Below are positions 34,816-43,516 of a DNA stretch of 43,561 nucleotides, piece after piece (position 1 is the first letter of the stretch; each line of letters begins with the position of its first letter). Source of the stretch: a virus; IMG/VR virus record IMGVR_UViG_3300030385_001578, positions 1-43,561 of that record. One strand, written 5' to 3'. Under the pieces are notes generated by a model that was given only the letters and a program-made list of their open reading frames with translations, did not search any database and was not told the origin of the DNA. Position numbers and translations under genes: made by a program.

Positions 34816-34910
34816 GGGGGGTCGATGTGGGCTCTGACCTGCGCAAACACGCCGACGAGCGGGTGGAGTTTACCGGCCACCCGTGCGAGAATTGGGACAC
34901 AAGTAAAGAC

Positions 34911-34975
34911 GGCCCGGACGCGGAGTTGGTACCTCCGGCCGGGCCTACCGATCAGCACTTAAGGAGAGTGATCGG
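34911..34975 (+). ncRNA. Structured leader A (before PD-(D/E)XK nuclease)
   Basis: GGCCCGG (34911-34917) pairs with 34939-34945, and CGGAG (34921-34925) with 34933-34937, giving a hairpin. CCGATC (34948-34953) can pair with GATCGG (34970-34975), placing AAGGAG (34961-34966) in the loop just before GTG 34977. It shares layout with leaders at 41952 and 42663. Confidence 0.6.
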
Positions 34976-34976
34976 C

Positions 34977-35456
34977 GTGGCCAGTATGCCACCCACCCTG
35001 TTCCCGCAGGCAACCCCCGACCCATCGCAGCCCGTCACGGATCTTGTGGCAGGCGTTGCGGCCGAGCACATCGTCTGCGCAGACCTTCTGCTCGACGGCT
35101 GGCGCGCATTCCTGACCGACCAATACTGCCCCTACGACCTTGCCGTCGAGGTTGATGGTCGGCTGCTGCGAGTTCAGGTGAAGGCCACCCGCACCAGTAA
35201 GCCGATCCCGCAACGAACCGCGCAGATTCCCGCCTATCAGTGGCACATCCGCCGCGCGGGGAAGGGTGGCGCGCGCGTCTACGGCGCAGGCGAGTTCGAC
35301 ATGTTGGCACTGGTGGCACTCGACATCCGACGCATTGCCTACCTGCCCCCATCTCTCAAGCTCCAAACGGTTCACATTCGACCGCCTGGGGCGCCCGGTG
35401 GCCGACAGTTTGATGACTTCCCGTTCACGCGGGCGATCGAAGGGGTGGCGGCATGA
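34977..35456 (+). CDS. PD-(D/E)XK endonuclease, possibly mobile
   Basis: 159 aa from GTG 34977, chosen because of AAGGAG and the leader hairpins. The frame is open back to a GTG at 34812 that overlaps the previous stop, so a 214-aa product cannot be excluded. GVAAEHIVCADLLLDGWRAF then DLAVEVDGRLLRVQVKATRT gives D-x(n)-(Q)VK, like the group I intron-type PD-(D/E)XK endonucleases. The stop overlaps the methyltransferase start, so a restriction partner role is the alternative. Confidence 0.7.
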   Translation: MASMPPTLFPQATPDPSQPVTDLVAGVAAEHIVCADLLLDGWRAFLTDQYCPYDLAVEVDGRLLRVQVKATRTSKPIPQRTAQIPAYQWHIRRAGKGGARVYGAGEFDMLALVALDIRRIAYLPPSLKLQTVHIRPPGAPGGRQFDDFPFTRAIEGVAA

Positions 35457-37168
35457 GCGAGCCTCACTTCAAGGATGCGACCGTGACTCTCTACGCGGGA
35501 GACTGCCTCGAGATTCTGCGAGAGTTGCCGGATTCCAGCGTCGACTCAGTCTGCTGCGACCCGCCGTATGGGCTCAGCAACACCAGCCCGCAGCAGGTCG
35601 CCGACACCCTGGTCCGCTGGGTCAACGGCGACCGCGACTACATCCCCACCGGCTCGGGCTTCATGGGTCGCCCGTGGGATGCGTTCGTGCCCCCGGTTGC
35701 GGTGTGGGATGAGTGCCTGCGGGTCCTCAAGCCGGGCGGGCATGTCCTCGCGTTCGCCGGCTCGAGGACGCACGACCTGATGACTCTGGCACTGCGCCTG
35801 GCGGGGTTCGAGATCCGCGACTCGGTTGCCTGGCTGTACGGCTCCGGCTTCCCCAAGTCGCTCGACGTGTCCAAGGCGATCGACAAGGCGCGCACCGAGG
35901 ACCGCGCGCCCGTCGATGCCGTGCGGTCGTGGCTCAACGCCCGACGCCTAGATGCGGGGCTCAGTCACGACGCGGTAAACAAGCACTTCGGGCACGCGAG
36001 CAACGGCGGCGGTTCGTCATCCGCATGGATGACCAACCCGACGAGCAAGAGCCTGCCGACGTGGGACCAGTGGCAGACGCTCAAGGCGCTGTTCGACTTC
36101 GGTGACGAGATGGACGCCGAGGTCTGGCGGCTCAATGGCCGCAAGGGCAAGCCGGGTGACAACTTCGAGAGCCGCGAGGTTCTGTCCGAAGTGGTTCGCG
36201 AAGTCAAGGGCGGGTCATGGGCGGACAACGCCGCGACGGGCCGCTACTCGCTCGGCGAGAAGGTCATCCGCGACACGGCCCCCGCCACCCCCGACGCCGA
36301 ACACTGGCAGGGCTGGGGCACGGCGCTCAAGCCCGCCTTCGAGCCGATCGTCATGGGCCGCAAGCCGCTGGCCGGGACCGTTGCCGCGAACGTCCTGGCG
36401 CACGGGACTGGGGCGCTCAACATCGACGGGTGCCGGACTGGTTACACATCCGACGCTGACAAGGCTTCCGCTCGCCCGGGCGGTAAGGCAACTTCACTCA
36501 ACGGCGCCCTCGCCGGAAAGGCTCAGACATGCGAGACCCCGAGTACCGCTGCACCGACGAAGGAATCTTCCACGACCTCCGAGACTGGGCCTGCACTCAC
36601 TGCGCCTTCGTCGTTGAACCCGAGGACCGAGTTCAAGGTTGAGCAAGGCGCCGGCCGCTGGCCCGCCAACGTCATCCTCGACGAGTCGCAGGCTGCCGAG
36701 CTTGATCTGATGAGCGGGGAGTCTGTCAGCAAGCGCAGCGCGGGAAGGCAGACACCCAAGAGCGGGACGGACGCCTACGGCGAGTTTGCAGGCACTGACA
36801 ATGAGGCGGGCCACGACGACACGGGCGGTGCGTCCCGATTCTTCTACGTCGCCAAGGCCGACAGCAGTGAGCGAGTCCGTGTCGACGGCATCGCTCACCC
36901 CACCGTCAAGCCGCTGAGCATCATGCGGTGGCTCGTTCGGCTCGTGACCCCACCAGGCGGGACCGTCCTCGAGCCGTTCGCTGGCAGTGGGACCACCGTC
37001 GAGGCGTGCATCCTCGAAGGCTTCCGCTGCATCGCCATCGAGCGCGAGGCGGAGTACCTGCCGCTCATTCAGCAGCGCATCCACCGACGCCGTGACCCCG
37101 TGGCCGCCGTCAAGGCGACCGGGGATGACGGCGGCCTGTTCGACCTGCTCGGGGAGGCGACGGCATGA
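35453..37168 (+). CDS. DNA methyltransferase (N4/N6, beta-class order)
   Basis: 571 aa, long for the family. DSVCCDPPYGL near residue 36 is the catalytic motif IV; PGGTVLEPFAGSGTTVEACI near residue 505 is the AdoMet motif I; HPTVKPLSIMRWLVRLV precedes it. Motif IV before I is the beta-class order. Residues about 140-240 form a helical insert (RSWLNARRLDAGLSHDAVNK) that may recognise the target, and residues about 330-400 are low-complexity Ser/Thr/Ala-rich. It may modify phage DNA against restriction. Confidence 0.88.
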   Translation: MSEPHFKDATVTLYAGDCLEILRELPDSSVDSVCCDPPYGLSNTSPQQVADTLVRWVNGDRDYIPTGSGFMGRPWDAFVPPVAVWDECLRVLKPGGHVLAFAGSRTHDLMTLALRLAGFEIRDSVAWLYGSGFPKSLDVSKAIDKARTEDRAPVDAVRSWLNARRLDAGLSHDAVNKHFGHASNGGGSSSAWMTNPTSKSLPTWDQWQTLKALFDFGDEMDAEVWRLNGRKGKPGDNFESREVLSEVVREVKGGSWADNAATGRYSLGEKVIRDTAPATPDAEHWQGWGTALKPAFEPIVMGRKPLAGTVAANVLAHGTGALNIDGCRTGYTSDADKASARPGGKATSLNGALAGKAQTCETPSTAAPTKESSTTSETGPALTAPSSLNPRTEFKVEQGAGRWPANVILDESQAAELDLMSGESVSKRSAGRQTPKSGTDAYGEFAGTDNEAGHDDTGGASRFFYVAKADSSERVRVDGIAHPTVKPLSIMRWLVRLVTPPGGTVLEPFAGSGTTVEACILEGFRCIAIEREAEYLPLIQQRIHRRRDPVAAVKATGDDGGLFDLLGEATA

Positions 37169-37437
37169 GCGAGCGCGAAGCCTGCTGCGACTGGTGCGGC
37201 CACGACAACGGCGAGCACCAGAACGGATGCCGCCTCGGGCTCGGACCCGACGAGCGGGGCGCGCACCGAACTGACTGCAACTGCGCTCCCCCTTACGCGG
37301 ATTGCAGACACCCAGCCTGCGACTGCACCGAGTGTGTGTACGACTGTCCGGGAGCCTGTGGCGATCACCACTGGCTCGACCGGCCCGAGTCCGACACTCG
37401 CGAGTGCCTGATCTGTGGAACGGAGGTGGTGGACTAA
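37165..37437 (+). CDS. Cysteine-rich protein with shared C-terminus
   Basis: 90 aa with about 14 Cys, including CCDWCGHDNGEH, CNCAPPYADCRH and CDCTECVYDCPG. The ending WLDRPESDTRECLICGTEV matches the product at 23332-23574. It could bind several zinc ions. ATGA overlap at the start and TAATG at the end. Confidence 0.65.
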   Translation: MSEREACCDWCGHDNGEHQNGCRLGLGPDERGAHRTDCNCAPPYADCRHPACDCTECVYDCPGACGDHHWLDRPESDTRECLICGTEVVD

Positions 37438-37610
37438 TGAGCGACGAGCAAGAGCCGCCGACCCTGACGGTCATCTGCCCCAAGTGCCGGACCACCTATC
37501 CCGTGGCCGTGACGATGGACTACGCAGGCCGGATCATTGAGGACCCGCTCGACTATGCCGACATGTGGGCGCACTACTGGACCCACACGCACTCGTGGGG
37601 GCGGTCGTGA
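37437..37610 (+). CDS. Small CxxC protein
   Basis: 57 aa, MSDEQEPPTLTVICPKCRTT, then YPVAVTMDYAGRIIEDPLDY and a His/Trp-rich end (WAHYWTHTHSWGRS). One C-x2-C and the C-terminal His could make a zinc site. Starts one base inside the previous stop. Confidence 0.6.
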   Translation: MSDEQEPPTLTVICPKCRTTYPVAVTMDYAGRIIEDPLDYADMWAHYWTHTHSWGRS

Positions 37611-37611
37611 C

Positions 37612-38238
37612 ATGGGAGTCGAGATCGTGAAGGCCGCCGTCGTGCACGGCCGCAGCCTCTCCGGGAACGCCCACAAGGCGCTCGTGGCGATGTCGCTCAG
37701 CGCCCTGGACAAGCCATCGAACGGGCGACCAGCGAGCCTCTACTGGGGCGGCTGGGACGCTCTCGCGCTGGCCCTGGGTTACGAGAACGCCGACCGAAAT
37801 AGCGCTGGACACAACGCCGTCGCCAGGGCTGTGCGCGAGCTCAAGAAGGGCAAGCACATCACGCCGATGGTCGACGCCGGACGCGGAACTAGGCAGTCCT
37901 ACCTCGTGCATCCGGGAGGCATCAAGGCCGCTACTCAGGGTGAGCAAAACGCTCACTCTGGGGGTGAGCAATCTGCTCACGCTAAGGGTGAGCAAAACGC
38001 TCATCAAAGGGTGAGCAAAACGCTCCCGCCTAGGAAGGAACAAGGATCAACGGGACTTACCCAGGACATATCGATCGCCCATGAGCCTCAGCTACAGACC
38101 GCGCGAGGCGAGGTCGAATCCAAGCCTGATCCACATGGGTTTAGGGGGCGACCGGGTGAGGACTGCGAGCGCTGCGGAGTCTCCCACCTCAACCGCACCG
38201 TTCACCCGCTCTGGCTGCTCAACGAAGGGACCGCCTGA
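37612..38238 (+). CDS. Replication initiator, lambda O-like, carrying internal iterons
   Basis: 208 aa from ATG 37612. The N-terminal about 100 residues look like a winged helix (LSGNAHKALVAMSLSALDKP, YWGGWDALALALGYENADRN, AVARAVRELKKGKHITPMVD). The middle is encoded by four iterons (GEQNAH repeats), and the C-terminus has a conserved-looking CERCGVSHLNRTVHPLWLLN. This copies the design of lambda O, in which the origin lies inside the initiator gene. No helicase or polymerase gene is visible, so it presumably loads the host replisome. Confidence 0.75.
   Translation: MGVEIVKAAVVHGRSLSGNAHKALVAMSLSALDKPSNGRPASLYWGGWDALALALGYENADRNSAGHNAVARAVRELKKGKHITPMVDAGRGTRQSYLVHPGGIKAATQGEQNAHSGGEQSAHAKGEQNAHQRVSKTLPPRKEQGSTGLTQDISIAHEPQLQTARGEVESKPDPHGFRGRPGEDCERCGVSHLNRTVHPLWLLNEGTA
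37940..38027 (+). repeat. Four iterons: candidate origin of replication
   Basis: Units begin at 37940, 37964, 37988 and 38011. Each is GTGAGC, five bases (AAAAC or AATCT), then GCTCAC or a variant, so each unit is itself an inverted repeat. Spacing is 24, 24 and 23 bases; the 23-base step breaks the peptide repeat, so the DNA rather than the protein is conserved. A less GC-rich stretch follows at about 38034-38085. Confidence 0.75.
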
Positions 38239-38239
38239 C

Positions 38240-38377
38240 ATGCACGACCACCGCTACTGCGAGCAGCAGATCGCCGCCGCAATCCGCACCAACAACACCG
38301 GACGCGCCGAGTACCTGTCGACCAGGTGCGACAGGGAGCACGGAGACCTCACCGACGAGCAGCAGGGGGAAGCATGA
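38240..38377 (+). CDS. Small hypothetical protein
   Basis: 45 aa, MHDHRYCEQQIAAAIRTNNT then TRCDREHGDLTDEQQGEA. Helical, with two Cys. One base separates it from the initiator stop, and the next gene overlaps by ATGA. Function unknown. Confidence 0.5.
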   Translation: MHDHRYCEQQIAAAIRTNNTGRAEYLSTRCDREHGDLTDEQQGEA

Positions 38378-38769
38378 GTGCGGAGCATGGCGCCGAGAAA
38401 GCGCGGACCTGCTGCGCGACCGTGCGCGGCCAGGACCACCGGGCGTGCGCCGAGACCGCGCACAACGAGCACGGCGTGGCCATGTGCGCCTGCCGAGGCC
38501 GAGGCCGTGTCCACGCCTTCGAGCCCGGCGAGGCGTGCTACCCGACGCGAGTCCTTCCGCCCCAAGGCGAGGGCGCGGGTTGCGACTGCGCCGAGTTGTG
38601 CAGCATGGGGCCGACCTGTCCGGGTGGGATGCTCGCCCGACTGCCGGGGTCGGGCTGCTGGCGGATGGCCTGCCCTGACGGACGACAACACTCGTGGATG
38701 CAGTGGCCAGACGGGGCCACACGGTGCCGTCACTGCGGGGAATGTCGGGATGAGGCCCCCAATGCCTAA
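38374..38769 (+). CDS. Cysteine-rich protein starting MSAEHGAE
   Basis: 131 aa with about 14 Cys in groups (RTCCATV, MCACRGRG, CDCAELCSMGPTCPGG, RCRHCGECRD). The last group is a C-x2-C-x2-C. The N-terminus MSAEHGAEK matches that of the leftward protein at 21462. It probably binds metal; function unknown. Confidence 0.62.
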   Translation: MSAEHGAEKARTCCATVRGQDHRACAETAHNEHGVAMCACRGRGRVHAFEPGEACYPTRVLPPQGEGAGCDCAELCSMGPTCPGGMLARLPGSGCWRMACPDGRQHSWMQWPDGATRCRHCGECRDEAPNA

Positions 38770-38821
38770 CCAGCCCCGCGAGGACAACCCGCTCCTTCCG
38801 GCCGAGAGGAGTGACCGATGA
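38762..38821 (+). CDS. Micro-ORF MPNQPREDNPLLPAERSDR
   Basis: 19 codons plus stop, overlapping the previous gene by eight bases and the next by four (ATGA). The end PAERS is encoded by CCGGCCGAGAGGAG, which supplies the next ribosome site and is repeated at 38928-38941 region. Translation is likely but unproved. Confidence 0.4.
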   Translation: MPNQPREDNPLLPAERSDR

Positions 38822-38946
38822 CCGCCGAGAAAGACCACAGTGTCGGATGCGTCATATGGCGCGACAAGGGTGACTGGCGCGTGTGCGTTTGCTCCCGAGA
38901 CGACTCCATGTTTCCCGACACTCCGGCCGAGAGGAGCAACCCGTGA
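38818..38946 (+). CDS. Small protein MTAEKD... (first of two)
   Basis: 42 aa: MTAEKDHSVGCVIWRDKGDW then RVCVCSRDDSMFPDTPAERS and NP. The first six codons are identical to those of the next gene, and the end again contains PAERS. It appears to be part of a tandem duplication at gene boundaries. Function unknown. Confidence 0.5.
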   Translation: MTAEKDHSVGCVIWRDKGDWRVCVCSRDDSMFPDTPAERSNP

Positions 38947-39182
38947 CCGCCGAGAAAGACGTGACTGCCACCACGCCCGAGTTCGGATTTCCGATTGGCC
39001 CGTGGTTCGAGTGGTTCGCGTGGCACCCCGTGAAGACCACAGACAGGGGTTGGCGCTGGCTGCGCCCCGTGTGGCGTCGCCGCTGGCAGACCGAGCGGCA
39101 CCTCAGTGGACCGACGTTCCAGTGGTTCACTGAGCAGGTCGCCCGCCCGCGCATTCCGGCCGCAAAGGCTGGTGACGCATGA
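38943..39182 (+). CDS. Trp/Arg-rich small protein MTAEKD... (second of two)
   Basis: 79 aa, GTG start. After MTAEKDVTATTPEFGFPIGP come many Trp/Arg residues (WFEWFAWHPVKTTDRGWRWL, RPVWRRRWQTERHL). No membrane helix is clear. The protein could sit at a membrane surface or bind nucleic acid. Function unknown. Confidence 0.58.
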   Translation: MTAEKDVTATTPEFGFPIGPWFEWFAWHPVKTTDRGWRWLRPVWRRRWQTERHLSGPTFQWFTEQVARPRIPAAKAGDA

Positions 39183-39466
39183 GCACCGAGAGCACCGAGG
39201 CGCTGATCGAGCGGGTGCTGGCGGAGCATGAGTGGGACTACCCCGACTCGTTCTGCAAGTGCGACGCGTGGGTATCACTCGACACCCCGTGGCGCGCCCA
39301 CGTTGCCGCCGCCATCACCCAGGCGCTCGCTGAGCAGCCCACCGTCGAGCAGCCCCGGCGACTGTGCGACCCGATCGACACCACCTGGGCCGAGGACGCA
39401 GCCGCATCCCACCGCGCCCTCTACGACACCGACAGCGGACGACGAGACAACTGGAGTGAGCGATGA
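39179..39466 (+). CDS. Hypothetical protein
   Basis: 95 aa, ALIERVLAEHEWDYPDSFCK then CDAWVSLDTPWRAHVAAAIT resembles a common actinophage pattern (H-x-W, CxC, HVA). Possibly zinc-binding. Overlaps both neighbours by ATGA. Confidence 0.6.
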   Translation: MSTESTEALIERVLAEHEWDYPDSFCKCDAWVSLDTPWRAHVAAAITQALAEQPTVEQPRRLCDPIDTTWAEDAAASHRALYDTDSGRRDNWSER

Positions 39467-39525
39467 GCGCCGCACCCGAGACCAGCCCTTTGCCCACGTC
39501 AGACCTGACCGAAAGGAGCCGCTGA
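39463..39525 (+). CDS. Leader micro-ORF MSAAPETSPLPTSDLTERSR
   Basis: 20 codons plus stop. Starts in an ATGA overlap, and its stop overlaps the next start (TGATG). The second half is a PTSDLT junction repeat, and GAAAGGAGC is both ERS codons and the next ribosome site. Confidence 0.5.
   Translation: MSAAPETSPLPTSDLTERSR
39492..39524 (+). repeat. PTSDLT junction repeat, copy 4
   Basis: GCCCACGTCAGACCTGACCG begins this copy; 33 bases to ATG 39525. It is identical to copy 3 over the first 20 bases. Confidence 0.85.
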
Positions 39526-39971
39526 TGCCGACGTACATCGTCAAGGCCACCCCCGACGAGGACTGGTACTGCATGTGGTCCACCGTCGTGGACGCCCCCA
39601 CCTACTGGGGCACGCGGCGCGAGCTGGAGCAGGCGGCACGAGACCCCCGCGAGATCGCCGCCGAGCGGTTCCACCGTGCCGACGACAACGGCAGCAGCGC
39701 CGCCTGGCCGGGCTGGCCCGCCGCCCGGCAGCCGTTCGCGTGGGCAGACGACGAGTTCCTCCTCATGAACGACACCCCACCGATGCCTGACCCGCTCCCC
39801 GACGGGGCGGACGGCGCCTGCTGGCTGCTGCCGCGCGCCAACCTGCGCGCCTTCTGCGAGGCGCTGGACCAGCCCGACGGCGACCTGGCCCCGCTCCTGC
39901 GGCTGAACCTCTACGACGCCGACGGCAACGAGATCGAGTCTTTCGGTCCCGAGAGTGGTGACGCCCGATGA
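39525..39971 (+). CDS. Hypothetical protein ending in SFGP
   Basis: 148 aa, MPTYIVKATPDEDWYCMWST. It starts with a beta strand and aromatic residues, and has an acidic, Pro-rich centre. The C-terminus reads NEIESFGPESGDAR, supplied by a junction repeat. It thus begins after a PTSDLT repeat and ends in an SFGP repeat. Function unknown. Confidence 0.6.
   Translation: MPTYIVKATPDEDWYCMWSTVVDAPTYWGTRRELEQAARDPREIAAERFHRADDNGSSAAWPGWPAARQPFAWADDEFLLMNDTPPMPDPLPDGADGACWLLPRANLRAFCEALDQPDGDLAPLLRLNLYDADGNEIESFGPESGDAR
39939..39950 (+). repeat. SFGP junction repeat, copy 5
   Basis: TCTTTCGGTCCC, 17 bases before ATG 39968, in frame with the end of the upstream gene. Confidence 0.85.
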
Positions 39972-40147
39972 CCGCCTGGACGCACCACGACCCCGCCGTC
40001 CGCAGGTTGATCCGTGAGGCGCAAGCGGTGGCTTGGGACGAGGGCTACGTGACGGCCGACCGCGAGTGGCAGAGCAGCGAGTACAGCGACCCCGACGCAT
40101 GGCCGTCCGATCTGAGCCGCAACCCGTACCGCAAGGAGACCCAATGA
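39968..40147 (+). CDS. Small AWDEGY...NPY family protein
   Basis: 59 aa: MTAWTHHDPAVRRLIREAQA then VAWDEGYVTADREWQSSEYS and SRNPYRKETQ. The AWDEGY and NPYR motifs also mark products at 22967 and 40428. Probably a small helical protein; function unknown. Confidence 0.55.
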   Translation: MTAWTHHDPAVRRLIREAQAVAWDEGYVTADREWQSSEYSDPDAWPSDLSRNPYRKETQ

Positions 40148-40431
40148 GCACGTACCTGAGCATCTACACCGACCACGGCCGCGTTCCCCATATCGACGAC
40201 ACCTCCGGTCTCCTCATGCTCGACAAGGGGGCCACGCTCATGCCGCCGGTTCAGCAGCTCGACCGCGCCGCCTGGTGCCGCGAGTTCGCTGCCGTGCTGA
40301 TCGCCGAGGCTGAGGCGTCGGAGGAGCGCCACGAGCAGCAAGTCCGCGATCTGGTGGAGGCGCGGGCTGAGGTGGCTCAACTTCGAGCCCAGAAGCGCGA
40401 GCGAGACGAGAAGCGCGAGGAGACGCCATGA
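40144..40431 (+). CDS. Hypothetical protein with coiled-coil end
   Basis: 95 aa. MSTYLSIYTDHGRVPHIDDT, a hydrophobic-helical middle (REFAAVLIAEAEASEERHEQ), then a charged coiled coil (ARAEVAQLRAQKRERDEKRE). May oligomerise. ATGA overlaps on both sides. Confidence 0.58.
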   Translation: MSTYLSIYTDHGRVPHIDDTSGLLMLDKGATLMPPVQQLDRAAWCREFAAVLIAEAEASEERHEQQVRDLVEARAEVAQLRAQKRERDEKREETP

Positions 40432-40592
40432 CCACCACCGGCTGCATCTGCGACTCGAACGCACCCCACTGGCACAGGAGTGCCGTCCGTGAGCGCGAGG
40501 CGGTGGCGTGGGAGGTCGGCTACCTGCGCGGCGTGCGTGACCAGGAGGGCGAGATGGACAGGGCTGACAATCCGTTTGAGGAGGAGCGATGA
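40428..40592 (+). CDS. Small AWxxGY...NP family protein
   Basis: 54 aa: MTTTGCICDSNAPHWHRSAV then REREAVAWEVGYLRGVRDQE and DNPFEEER. A Cys/His start (CIC, H-x-H) may bind metal. AWEVGY and NPF relate it to the 39968 product. ATGA overlaps on both sides. Confidence 0.52.
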   Translation: MTTTGCICDSNAPHWHRSAVREREAVAWEVGYLRGVRDQEGEMDRADNPFEEER

Positions 40593-40963
40593 GCACCGCA
40601 CCCGACAAGGCTCTGACCGACGTCGCCGATCGCATCAAGAGCGAGGCGGCTACGGCATCGAGGGCCGGACAGATGGCCGCACTCGACCGACTGGCCGACG
40701 ACGTGCAGGAAGGCGCCTACCGCATCGCTGCTGTCACCGCACGGGCTGATGCTGCCGAGGCCAAGGTGGCCGCTGTCGAGGCGCTGCTGTGGATGTGGGA
40801 GGCCGGCCAATCCCATCTCGGCACCGAACGCGGCCATTGGGGGCCGTCGTCCAACGCACTCCGTGCCGCGCTGGCTGACGAGGAGACCCAGGAAGGCCCG
40901 CAGGAGGCGTTTGCAGCCGATCTGACGGGCGTGCAGGGCGAGATGGACCGGGAGGGCCAGTGA
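40589..40963 (+). CDS. Helical hypothetical protein
   Basis: 124 aa, Ala-rich and helical (LTDVADRIKSEAATASRAGQ, AALDRLADDVQEGAYRIAAV). A middle WMWEAGQSHLGTERGHWG is aromatic, and the end is acidic. Function not recognised. Confidence 0.6.
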   Translation: MSTAPDKALTDVADRIKSEAATASRAGQMAALDRLADDVQEGAYRIAAVTARADAAEAKVAAVEALLWMWEAGQSHLGTERGHWGPSSNALRAALADEETQEGPQEAFAADLTGVQGEMDREGQ

Positions 40964-41658
40964 GCGAGACGAGCGCCTGTGTGCGCGGATGCACGATGTA
41001 CCGCTACCACGTCGCCGAATGCGAGGGAGCCGAGGACGAGACCTGCCGCGGCTGCCTGCCCCGACGAGCAAGCCACGGCCGACTGTGCGACACCTGCCAC
41101 CGCCGCCTCGAGCTGATGGTCCACGACGCGCCGGGGGTCATCCGGTGGCTGACGGGGAACATGCGCGCTGGCGACAGTGCAGCCCGCGCCAAGGAGGATC
41201 ACGAGCGGGTTCACGGCGGTGACGAGGACGTGCCGGCGCCGCTCAAGATCGACCTGATGGACCTGCGCGACCTACTGCGGGACAGGCTCACGCTGTGGGT
41301 GGACGACTGGTGCGAACACAAGGGCCTTCACGGACCCGACGAGCACACGCCGGAGAAGGATGCCGCCTACCTGCTGATGTGGCTACCCGGCGTCTGTGGC
41401 GTCGAGTGGATCGGCGACTGGTGGACCGAGATGGCCGAGACGATGAGCGAGGCTCACGCGCTCGCACCGTGGCGACCAGCCATGCGGCGAGTGCCACGGG
41501 TGCCATGCCCCGGATGCGCCGAGACCAACCTGGCGATCTTCGGCGGCGAGTCGGACATCACCTGCCTGTCGTGCCGGATCGTGATGACCGAGGAGCGGTT
41601 CGGACTGTGGGAGCGCGTGCTGCGTGAGGAGCAGGAGACCGAGGAGGAGGCATCGTGA
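40960..41658 (+). CDS. Zinc-finger-containing hypothetical protein
   Basis: 232 aa, GTG start. Cys/His clusters lie at the N-terminus (CVRGC, CRGCLPRRASHGRLCDTCHR) and C-terminus (VPCPGCAETNLAIFGGESDI then TCLSCRI). They are separated by a helical central region with a long, conserved-looking stretch (DLMDLRDLLRDRLTLWVDDW, KDAAYLLMWLPGVCGVEWIG). Similar proteins are frequent in actinophages, just before a MerR-like gene. Function unknown. Confidence 0.65.
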   Translation: MSETSACVRGCTMYRYHVAECEGAEDETCRGCLPRRASHGRLCDTCHRRLELMVHDAPGVIRWLTGNMRAGDSAARAKEDHERVHGGDEDVPAPLKIDLMDLRDLLRDRLTLWVDDWCEHKGLHGPDEHTPEKDAAYLLMWLPGVCGVEWIGDWWTEMAETMSEAHALAPWRPAMRRVPRVPCPGCAETNLAIFGGESDITCLSCRIVMTEERFGLWERVLREEQETEEEAS

Positions 41659-41894
41659 CCGTGACCACCGACGAGGCTGCCGAGCTCGCAGGCATCGACC
41701 CCAGTGTGATCCGCAAGTGGGTCATGCGCGGTGACCTCGAGCCTGTGCGTCGAGGAGCCAGGCCGCTGCGCTTCGACTACGAGGACGTGGCCCGAGTGCA
41801 GCGGGAGAAGCGACCGAAGGCATGGCGGCAACGACACGAGGAGGCTGCGACACGCTGGCTTGGTGGACTTCCGGGTGACAATCTGGCACGATAG
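41655..41894 (+). CDS. MerR-like HTH protein
   Basis: 79 aa, GTG start overlapping the previous stop. TTDEAAELAGIDPSVIRKWV then MRGDLEPVRRGARPLRFDYE is a short winged HTH of the excisionase/MerR class. A basic helix follows. It is the last gene before a terminator and may be a regulator. Confidence 0.68.
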   Translation: MTVTTDEAAELAGIDPSVIRKWVMRGDLEPVRRGARPLRFDYEDVARVQREKRPKAWRQRHEEAATRWLGGLPGDNLAR

Positions 41895-41910
41895 CCGCGT
41901 AGATAAGTGC

Positions 41911-41940
41911 GCCCCGAAGTCGATCTGACTCGGGGCGTTT
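41911..41940 (+). terminator. Intrinsic terminator of the early operon
   Basis: GCCCCG (41911-41916) pairs with CGGGGC (41931-41936), and AGTC with GACT inside, with one bulged A; GTTT follows. Confidence 0.75.
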
Positions 41941-41951
41941 CCCATTTAAGT

Positions 41952-42009
41952 GACCCCGCGACGGCGGTAACCGTCCGGGGTCTTGGCCGAACTGGTTGAG
42001 GAGTTCGAC
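41952..42009 (+). ncRNA. Structured leader B (before GIY-YIG gene)
   Basis: GACCCCG (41952-41958) pairs with 41976-41982, and GACGG (41960-41964) with 41971-41975, around CGGTAA: 12 pairs with one bulged C. TGGCCGA, GAGGAG (41998-42003) and GAC-GTG follow. Leader C at 42663 has nearly the same sequence. Confidence 0.68.
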
Positions 42010-42399
42010 GTGGACCACGTTATCGCAGACAAGCAACGGATCGTTGATGGGTCCGGCTACACAGTCCTGGTTGGTCCAGGTCGAGCTTCTGCCAGGCCGG
42101 CGACTCGACGCTCGGCACTACTCGCACTCACTGGTGGGCGTCGAGTCGTGTACGCGATGCGAGTGCCCGATGGCGCTATCAAGATCGGCACCACGGTCGA
42201 TCTCCCGAATCGCCTCAGTGCGCTTCACGCCGAACTGCTCGGCTTCACTTTCGCCGACCTGGCTCACGAGCGCGCACTTCAGTCCCTATTGGCTGCACAT
42301 CTCTTACGTGGGCGGGAGTTCTTTAGGCCGACGCCCGAGGTGTTCGCTGTCGTCAATGAGATGCGCGACGAGTGGAATCTTCCGCACATCGCCGCCTAA
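42010..42399 (+). CDS. GIY-YIG-type nuclease (T5orf172-like)
   Basis: 129 aa from GTG 42010. I prefer this to the TTG at 41983 because GAGGAG and GACGTG align with the HNH gene at 42720. VVYAMRVPDGAIKIGTTVDL then PNRLSALHAELLG, ERALQSLLAAHLLRGREFFR and PTPEVFAVVNEM match the T5orf172/GIY-YIG family: Tyr, Gly-Thr and the Glu of REFF. A stand-alone homing endonuclease is likely. The N-terminal about 45 residues are specific. Confidence 0.75.
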   Translation: MDHVIADKQRIVDGSGYTVLVGPGRASARPATRRSALLALTGGRRVVYAMRVPDGAIKIGTTVDLPNRLSALHAELLGFTFADLAHERALQSLLAAHLLRGREFFRPTPEVFAVVNEMRDEWNLPHIAA

Positions 42400-42414
42400 G
42401 TCGGGAGGTTCGCC

Positions 42415-42618
42415 ATGACCGCGCAAGCCTTCCGCATCACCGACGAGACCACCGCGGCCGAGCTGATCGAACTGCTGGGCCACCTGAATGCGAACGCGCG
42501 TCGTCTGCCTCGCATCGTGGGCGACGACGTGATCCCGACCGCGTGGGACCAGGCGCACCGCAGGATGGACGGGCCGATCGACGACGTGCTTGAGGCGTTG
42601 GCGAGGGAGCGGGGCTGA
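42415..42618 (+). CDS. Small hypothetical protein
   Basis: 67 aa: MTAQAFRITDETTAAELIEL, then LGHLNANARRLPRIVGDDVI and a helical end. GGGAGG precedes the ATG. This short protein, often found in actinophages near the genome right end, has no function I can name. Confidence 0.58.
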   Translation: MTAQAFRITDETTAAELIELLGHLNANARRLPRIVGDDVIPTAWDQAHRRMDGPIDDVLEALARERG

Positions 42619-42662
42619 GCAAGCAACCCGCCCGCCTGCTCCACTGATTCATCCCAAAGCAA

Positions 42663-42719
42663 GACCCCGCGACGGCTGCAACCGCCCGGGGCTATGGCCG
42701 ATCTTCTGAGGAGACCGAC
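42663..42719 (+). ncRNA. Structured leader C (before HNH gene)
   Basis: CCCCG (42665-42669) pairs with 42687-42691, and CGG (42673-42675) with 42682-42684, around CTGCAA. TGGCCGATC and GAGGAG (42708-42713) follow, with GTG at 42720. Same order and spacing as leader B, with several base changes. Confidence 0.65.
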
Positions 42720-43235
42720 GTGCCGAACCCTACATGCAGCGTGCCCGATTGCGACAAGCCCAGCCGCACCGCAAAGGCTGACTACTGCCCGATGCACTAC
42801 CACCGCTGGTATCGACACGGCAGCGTAGATAAGACCGCCTCTGGCTCCGGCATCACCGCCAGCCTAGGCCGGCGCTACCGGACTATCTACAATCCGACCC
42901 ACCCCCTCGCCGGCAAGAACGGCAAGGTCTACGAGCATCGTGCGGTGCTGTACGACCAGATCGGTCCCGGTCCCCACCCCTGCCACTGGTGTGAGGATGA
43001 AGTGGACTGGCTACCCAAGGGCACCCCCGGCGCACTCCAGGTAGACCACCTCAACAACGACGGGGCGGACAACGCCCCTGCCAACCTGGCCCCCTCTTGT
43101 GCCGGGTGCAACACCGCACGGGGCCAGCAGCGCAAGGCGGCAGCTCTCGCTAGCCAAGGTTGGTGGTCAAGCCACGACACGATCGCTCGCCTCAAGAGCG
43201 GCGGTCGTCGTGCTCCTATTGAGCGGGCAGCGTGA
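42720..43235 (+). CDS. HNH endonuclease with zinc finger
   Basis: 171 aa, GTG start set by GAGGAG. The N-terminus CSVPDCDKPSRTAKADYCPM then HYHRWYRHG is a zinc-finger type seen in phage HNH proteins. The HNH core is CHWCEDEVDWLPKGTPGALQ then VDHLNNDGADNAPANLAPSC and AGCNTARG. It is probably a homing endonuclease, since it has the same leader as the GIY-YIG gene. The GTGA overlap with the next HNH gene couples them. Confidence 0.85.
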   Translation: MPNPTCSVPDCDKPSRTAKADYCPMHYHRWYRHGSVDKTASGSGITASLGRRYRTIYNPTHPLAGKNGKVYEHRAVLYDQIGPGPHPCHWCEDEVDWLPKGTPGALQVDHLNNDGADNAPANLAPSCAGCNTARGQQRKAAALASQGWWSSHDTIARLKSGGRRAPIERAA

Positions 43236-43516
43236 CGGCCAAGCGCAACGGTCGGACCAGGCGCGAGCGACAGAACGCCGACAACCTCAAGGCTCAGCGT
43301 CGTCAACCTTGTGCTCGCTGCGGTCAGAAGATCGACTACAGCGCTGAGAGTGGCGATCCAAGCTCCTTCATTGCAGGTCACATCAAGTCGTGGATCGACC
43401 ATCCTGAACTGCGCGCCGATCCTGCGAACCTGCAACCCGAACACGAGCGCTGCGGCAAGTCGGCTGGAGCTGACGACGGCGGCGCGCTCAACGGCTCGAC
43501 CTCTCGCCAGTGGTGA
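43232..43516 (+). CDS. HNH endonuclease (packaging-associated type)
   Basis: 94 aa, GTG start. RRQPCARCGQKIDYSAESGD, then FIAGHIKSWIDHPELRADPA and NLQPEHERCGKSAG form an HNH with C-x2-C and H-x-x-C zinc knuckles; the usual DH is GH here. If the window is circularised, terS follows directly, and such HNH proteins are known to help terminase at cos in several siphoviruses. The GH substitution leaves activity uncertain. Confidence 0.82.
   Translation: MTAKRNGRTRRERQNADNLKAQRRQPCARCGQKIDYSAESGDPSSFIAGHIKSWIDHPELRADPANLQPEHERCGKSAGADDGGALNGSTSRQW

Follow-up and report, generated by a model that had tools for sequence, protein, structure and literature searches.

A candidate antisense RNA element in front of homing-type nuclease genes of actinobacterial phages

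Two genes for unrelated nucleases, one of GIY-YIG type and one of HNH type, lie in IMG/VR virus record IMGVR_UViG_3300030385_001578, which was analysed over its whole length of 43,561 nucleotides (hereafter, the window). Each is preceded by a short leader, termed B and C, respectively. On direct reading, both leaders contain the hairpin GACCCCGCGACGG..., TGGCCGA, GGAG, and GAC-GTG in identical order (41952-42012 and 42663-42722), in agreement with an earlier sequence-only reading in which they were near-identical in order and spacing in front of unrelated protein folds. A sense-strand covariance model (R1), built from 75 diverse copies of which none came from the window, finds B with 75.8 bits (E 5e-25) and C with 68.1 bits (E 3e-22). 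These are the only strong R1 matches in the whole window and are far beyond chance. Leaders B and C are therefore members of one conserved structured element. The sequence-only reading regarded this element as a structured leader of the nuclease mRNA, but the folded RNA is most likely encoded on the opposite strand, in which case the element is an antisense RNA gene.

In blastn searches, leaders B and C matched significantly to sequences of Gordonia, Arthrobacter, Brevibacterium, and other phages, which lie before HNH, endonuclease VII, and unnamed genes, and pattern scans of IMG/VR added at least about 240 further places. A scan of ~85,000 bacterial and archaeal genomes yielded 87 stretches, of which almost all belong to Actinomycetes and most to Streptomyces, although a few that lack the upstream hairpin, P1, are chance matches. 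More than 230 distinct copies were gathered from phages, IMG/VR contigs, and Streptomyces genomes; pattern matches L014, L020, L026, L042, L169, and L194, a minus-strand match in L082, and five genome matches without P1 were discarded as chance. At least one copy is present in 92 of 121 Streptomyces genomes, with up to 18 per genome, and the element occurs in 65 of the 395 members of a class sample. Rfam 15 contains no match at E values up to 5 across the whole window, and none at the element in 20 other loci at E values up to 1.

The sequence-only reading had proposed compensatory pair changes as a check, and strong covariation in the sense alignment of the 75 copies bears out its suggestion that the leader is selected in its own right. 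Mutual information computed with no structure supplied ranks the pairs of P1 and of the downstream hairpin, P2, at the top, and reveals no additional long-range helix. The imperfect pairs reveal which strand is under selection. Sense-strand A·C outnumbers G·U by 117 to 6 in P1 (86 to 5 without a doubtful loop-closing position) and by 41 to 1 in P2, or 158 to 7 together. Since an A·C mismatch in one strand corresponds to a G·U pair in its complement, the RNA that pairs is that of the minus strand. When 70 copies are aligned on the minus strand, 99.1% of the cells are paired, double changes are found in 13 of 18 pairs, and none of 500 shuffles is as good; all 70 have U·G where an A·C stands at the base of the sense P2. 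The antisense strand has the lower predicted folding energy in 99 of 100 copies (means of -33.3 versus -27.5 kcal/mol for sense). For B, the values are -34.6 kcal/mol (z -6.0) antisense and -31.1 (z -3.2) sense, and for C they are -31.0 (z -2.65) antisense and -20.5 (z -0.69) sense, such that sense leader C barely folds. A minus-strand covariance model (R2) matches B at 41946-42023 (70.1 bits) and C at 42657-42733 (66.4 bits). The element most likely encodes a structured RNA on the strand opposite its target. RNAalifold proposed that P2 on the sense strand extends over the start codon. This extension was rejected, because the start codon itself dictates its G·U pairs, and on the minus strand they turn into A·C.

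Conservation extends into the coding sequence. Positions +8, +12, and +13 are A, T, and A in more than 90% of 213 distinct copies, despite the unrelated proteins encoded, and conservation ends there. The pattern A...TA begins at +8 in 200 of 223 copies and at any other position in at most 7, whereas only 0.76% of 5931 other gene starts in the same DNA have it at +8. The patterns used for collection did not require these positions, nor the inner stem of P1. A cause at the protein level is unlikely, given that +12 falls on the third position of a codon and that the proteins have no relationship to one another. On the minus strand, A...TA reads TANNNT, a -10 box, with hexamers such as TACGCT and TAGGCT. 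We had also considered a riboswitch or ribozyme in which A8, T12, A13, and GGCC would be conserved for function, but these bases turned out to make up the -10 box of the minus strand and the base of its 5' hairpin.

The first base expected from the -10 box is a G opposite position -1, and the 5' hairpin (GUCGACU/AGUCGGC) starts exactly at this base, which would account for why GGC and GAC are invariant on the sense strand. It is followed by a CAYG linker, an 11-pair GC hairpin with one bulged G, and a U-rich tail (3.9 U per 8 bases versus 1.7 in a control stretch). The predicted RNA has a median length of 60 nucleotides, with about 60-67 for leaders B and C, and appears to possess its own promoter and terminator. 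It would be complementary to the Shine-Dalgarno site, and would only abut the start codon if transcription begins at -1. On the sense strand, TANNNT occurs 8-30 bases before P1 in 123 of 218 copies, versus 12 in a control window. Coordinates are listed in Table 1.

Table 1. Positions of the element, its predicted RNAs, and associated genes in the window
Feature	Position	Strand	Remarks
Leader A, before PD-(D/E)XK gene	34905..34990	.	Same plan on either strand; membership unproven
Predicted antisense RNA B	41943..42009	-	First base G at 42009; 5' hairpin GUCGAACU/AGUUCGGC, linker, GC terminator hairpin, tail CACUUAAAUG
Leader B hairpin P1	41952..41982	+	GACCCCG, bulged C, GACGG, loop CGGTAA, CCGTC, CGGGGTC; terminator hairpin when read on the minus strand
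Leader B hairpin P2	41988..42007	+	CGAACT ... AGTTCG; Shine-Dalgarno GGAG inside, 42000-42003
GIY-YIG-type nuclease gene (T5orf172/MUG113-like)	42010..42399	+	GTG start; MUG113 E 0.005, below curated cut-off (weak)
Predicted antisense -10 box TAACGT	42017..42022	-	A...TA at +8 to +13 of GIY-YIG gene; direct sequence
Predicted antisense RNA C	42654..42719	-	First base G at 42719; 5' hairpin GUCGGUCU/AGAUCGGC, GC terminator hairpin, tail UCUUGCUUUGG
Leader C hairpin P1	42663..42691	+	A·C at 42672/42685 is G·U on minus strand
Leader C hairpin P2	42699..42717	+	Holds GGAG, 42710-42713; A·C at 42701/42715 is G·U on minus strand
HNH nuclease gene	42720..43235	+	GTG start; HNH_3 E 0.0025, HNH E 0.0095, both below cut-off (weak)
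Predicted antisense -10 box TAGGGT	42727..42732	-	A...TA at +8 to +13 of HNH gene

The 229 proteins encoded downstream of the element in phages and viral contigs include 144 in one HNH/endonuclease VII cluster, 28 in one GIY-YIG cluster, and 21 small Cys-rich proteins of Streptomyces type; the remainder are mixed. Searches with Pfam add LAGLIDADG, BRO, DUF6415, FtsK gamma, and integrase domains. The window's GIY-YIG protein groups with the 27 other GIY-YIG proteins behind the same element, and a translated search detected no relatives of it. A 62% identical relative of the window's HNH protein, on another contig (L458), likewise has the element. In bacteria, copies precede genes for serine recombinases of 655 residues and for numerous small proteins without a known function. 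The expectation that the element would be found upstream of homing nucleases and not of ordinary genes is thus correct for at least 172 of the 229 proteins, which fall into the HNH or GIY-YIG clusters, but a leader reserved for homing enzymes is contradicted by the copies before serine integrases, BRO proteins, and Streptomyces genes of unknown function, and we rejected nuclease specificity. Phage elements are enriched before homing-type nucleases but are not exclusive to them.

Several observations concern individual carriers. In about ten Streptomyces serine recombinase genes (~655 residues; L264, L270, L313, and similar), the putative antisense -10 box is one base nearer the start codon (T11 A12). 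Loci L433-L452 and L376-L432, from Streptomyces and other Actinomycetes, have the element before small proteins with motifs such as GRHR, DUF6415, or Cys-rich segments; one possibility is that these genes and the element form pairs resembling type I toxin-antitoxin systems. Annotated gene starts fall inside the element in phages Keitabear (L006), Malisha (L010), and Guacamole (L003), where the fixed start further down seems the likelier one and the annotation is probably wrong. Microcystis phage MinS1 (MZ923504.1) has the element at 40377-40451 before an HNH gene. This phage is listed for a cyanobacterium, yet all other carriers are actinobacterial and it shares an 83% identical amidase stretch with the window, so its host assignment is questionable. 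Within the window, a second small HNH gene (43232-43516) follows the leader-C gene with a 4-base overlap and without an element of its own. The sequence GCGCCCCGA...TCGGGGCGTTTCCC (41909-41943), immediately before leader B, resembles a sense terminator of the upstream helix-turn-helix gene, and would therefore leave little space for a sense promoter of B.

Comparisons of related phages support the earlier suggestion that the leader moves with its genes. Relative to Ailee, Shivanishola, and Stultus, Keitabear has a 605-bp insert comprising the upstream region, the element, and the HNH gene, from ~55 bases before P1 to ~11 bases past the annotated HNH stop. The insert in Squiddly, relative to Budski and Phistory, begins ~45 bases before P1 and includes TATGAT, the element, and endonuclease VII. 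These empty-site alleles imply that leader and gene come and go as a single unit, and the Keitabear and Squiddly copies appear to have the present and absent alleles of a free-standing homing-endonuclease cassette. Just past the HNH insert of Keitabear, positions 2048-2110 of locus L006 are diverged from the empty-site relatives, as co-conversion after homing predicts. The leader also seems to move between genes. For GIY-YIG copies, the nearest element belongs to another GIY-YIG gene in 3 of 19 cases, which is the base rate when close protein relatives are left out, although the short sequences limit the power of this comparison. Inheritance of the element together with one nuclease family is therefore unsupported, and the module is presumably exchanged between unrelated nucleases.

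We propose, with a probability of roughly 0.75, that leaders B and C are copies of a mobile control module, namely a gene for a cis-antisense RNA that blocks translation of the nuclease. A promoter whose TANNNT box lies within codons 3-5 of the nuclease gene would direct transcription from the base just before the start codon, and the RNA would form its 5' hairpin from the first nucleotide. After the short CAYG linker, the 11-pair GC hairpin and U-rich tail would terminate transcription. The product would be complementary to the entire 5' leader, including the Shine-Dalgarno site, and abut the start codon; its pairing would keep ribosomes from binding, and RNase III could cleave the duplex. 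Nuclease synthesis would thereby be kept low, and more so as copies multiply during phage replication. In this manner the element may limit toxic expression, as the sequence-only reading had supposed.

Several points weigh against this proposal. The whole case is built from sequence, from which production of the RNA, its pairing, and its repressive effect are all inferred. Many copies were gathered by patterns requiring TGGCC, and in two scans also GAC-RTG, so that invariance there is partly imposed. No conserved antisense -35 box was detected (TTGACA ranked only 4th of 180 permutations, a weak signal), and inspection by eye revealed no clear sense TANNNT before B or C. The sense strand can fold too, concealing the Shine-Dalgarno site. 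Finally, a related arrangement warns that such RNAs may activate rather than repress: Asr9 of ISPpu9 is an antisense RNA that raises translation (PMC8450116).

The main rival is translational control by the sense strand, in which the nuclease mRNA leader folds to hide the Shine-Dalgarno site and start codon, and is perhaps opened by a ligand, a protein, or temperature. GGAG does lie within P2 in most copies, sense leader B folds better than its shuffles, and hairpins that hide ribosome-binding sites are known for I-TevI, segB, and mobE (PMC2988022). However, selection for pairing on the sense strand, as expected of such T4-type hairpins, is not what we found, since sense G·U is nearly absent and A·C is common. 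The pair changes thus track the minus strand, sense leader C hardly folds while its antisense counterpart does, and the A...TA in the coding region is left unexplained, so we consider sense control unlikely. It is less probable again that the minus-strand RNA works chiefly in trans, or as a decoy, against other element copies in the cell, with its overlap in cis being incidental. Several phages have two copies, which in Squiddly are both strong, and antisense RNA B is computed to pair with leader C at -91 kcal/mol versus about -46 for shuffled targets, which makes some action between copies possible. Cognate pairing is nonetheless far stronger (-146 to -150, with B and its own leader at -146), and nearly all copies overlap the Shine-Dalgarno site and start codon exactly. 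We give very little credence to a function in DNA or transcription alone, whereby divergent promoters and a bidirectional terminator insulate the inserted gene and no regulatory RNA is made. The sense TANNNT common upstream of P1 and the terminator-like form of P1, with its U-rich minus-strand tail, would fit such an insulator, but it has no need for a second covarying hairpin, P2, or for a promoter aimed at a terminator 60 nucleotides away.

The cis-antisense proposal can be extended to a more speculative one, which we regard as rather doubtful. Unrelated selfish nucleases (HNH, endonuclease VII, GIY-YIG, LAGLIDADG, and serine integrase) in actinobacterial phages and Streptomyces may have acquired a family of portable antisense RNA genes. 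Through the 5' half that these RNAs share, resident copies could also repress incoming nucleases that carry the module, leading to incompatibility or immunity between homing elements.

The sequence-only reading counted three leaders of one type, and this is upheld for B and C but not for leader A, which precedes a PD-(D/E)XK gene assigned to PDDEXK_5 by Pfam. Its hairpin, CCGATC...GATCGG, and GTG are present as described, and the CCGATC/GATCGG pairing has counterparts in CGAACT/AGTTCG of B and CGATCT/AGACCG of C. The minus strand of A has CATACT near its start, a hairpin at the ribosome-binding site, a GC hairpin, and the tail GUCUUU, with an antisense fold of -37.7 kcal/mol (z -4.6). R1 has no match to A in the window search. 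R2 scores 9.8 bits across its full length, with an E value of 1.2 in the window search and of 0.005 in the local stretch of 201 bases, and this is too low to demonstrate kinship. Relatives of the A protein elsewhere have no comparable leader. The common plan is therefore suggestive only. The gene overlaps one with an N4/N6 DNA methylase domain by 4 bases (34977-37168), and because this methylase gene adjoins, the gene possibly belongs to a restriction-modification pair instead of encoding a homing enzyme.

Actinobacteriophages commonly carry free-standing homing nucleases, and little is known about how harm to the phage is avoided. A shared antisense RNA module, if real, would be one general answer to how these nucleases spare their phage. 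It would also represent a large RNA family that Rfam lacks, and an instance of conserved coding bases serving as a promoter of the opposite strand. The annotated starts of a number of nuclease genes are probably wrong, and the element could be a sequence marker for selfish genes whose proteins have diverged beyond recognition.

We found no account of this element in the full-text literature searched, a scope that did not extend to subscription papers and preprints, and it is likely, though not certain, to be new. Vardy's 50-bp motif is set apart from it by its description. The SAS/ESAS sequences of Cluster K mycobacteriophages also recur at gene starts in actinophages and contain an inverted repeat, but their consensus is GGGATAGGAGCCC, ESAS has a sense promoter, they are described in Cluster K, and they have no tie to nucleases (PMC3203893, PMC11373665). 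On reading the sequences, this consensus is absent from leaders A-C. The hairpins of I-TevI, segB, and mobE resemble the element in that they reside in leaders of phage homing endonucleases (GIY-YIG and HNH) and limit translation, although they are on the sense strand, gene-specific, and non-homologous, with no antisense promoter reported (PMC2988022).

Two antisense RNAs of mobile elements have a similar arrangement. Asr9 is directed against the structured 5' leader of a mobile-element nuclease and is itself stable, but its effect on translation is positive, and it is found in Pseudomonas with a single gene family (PMC8450116). RNA-OUT of IS10 is a 69-nucleotide antisense RNA complementary to the transposase translation start (PMC5006887). 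Like the predicted RNA, it is transcribed from the opposite strand over the translation start of a mobile-element nuclease, and low nuclease expression with control that strengthens with copy number is common to RNA-OUT and our proposal (PMC5006887). Unlike RNA-OUT, to which it has no known sequence relation, the element RNA would fit two hairpins, including a terminator, into about 60 nucleotides, with a promoter fixed in codons 3-5. It also appears as one RNA family on many unrelated genes of actinobacterial phages.

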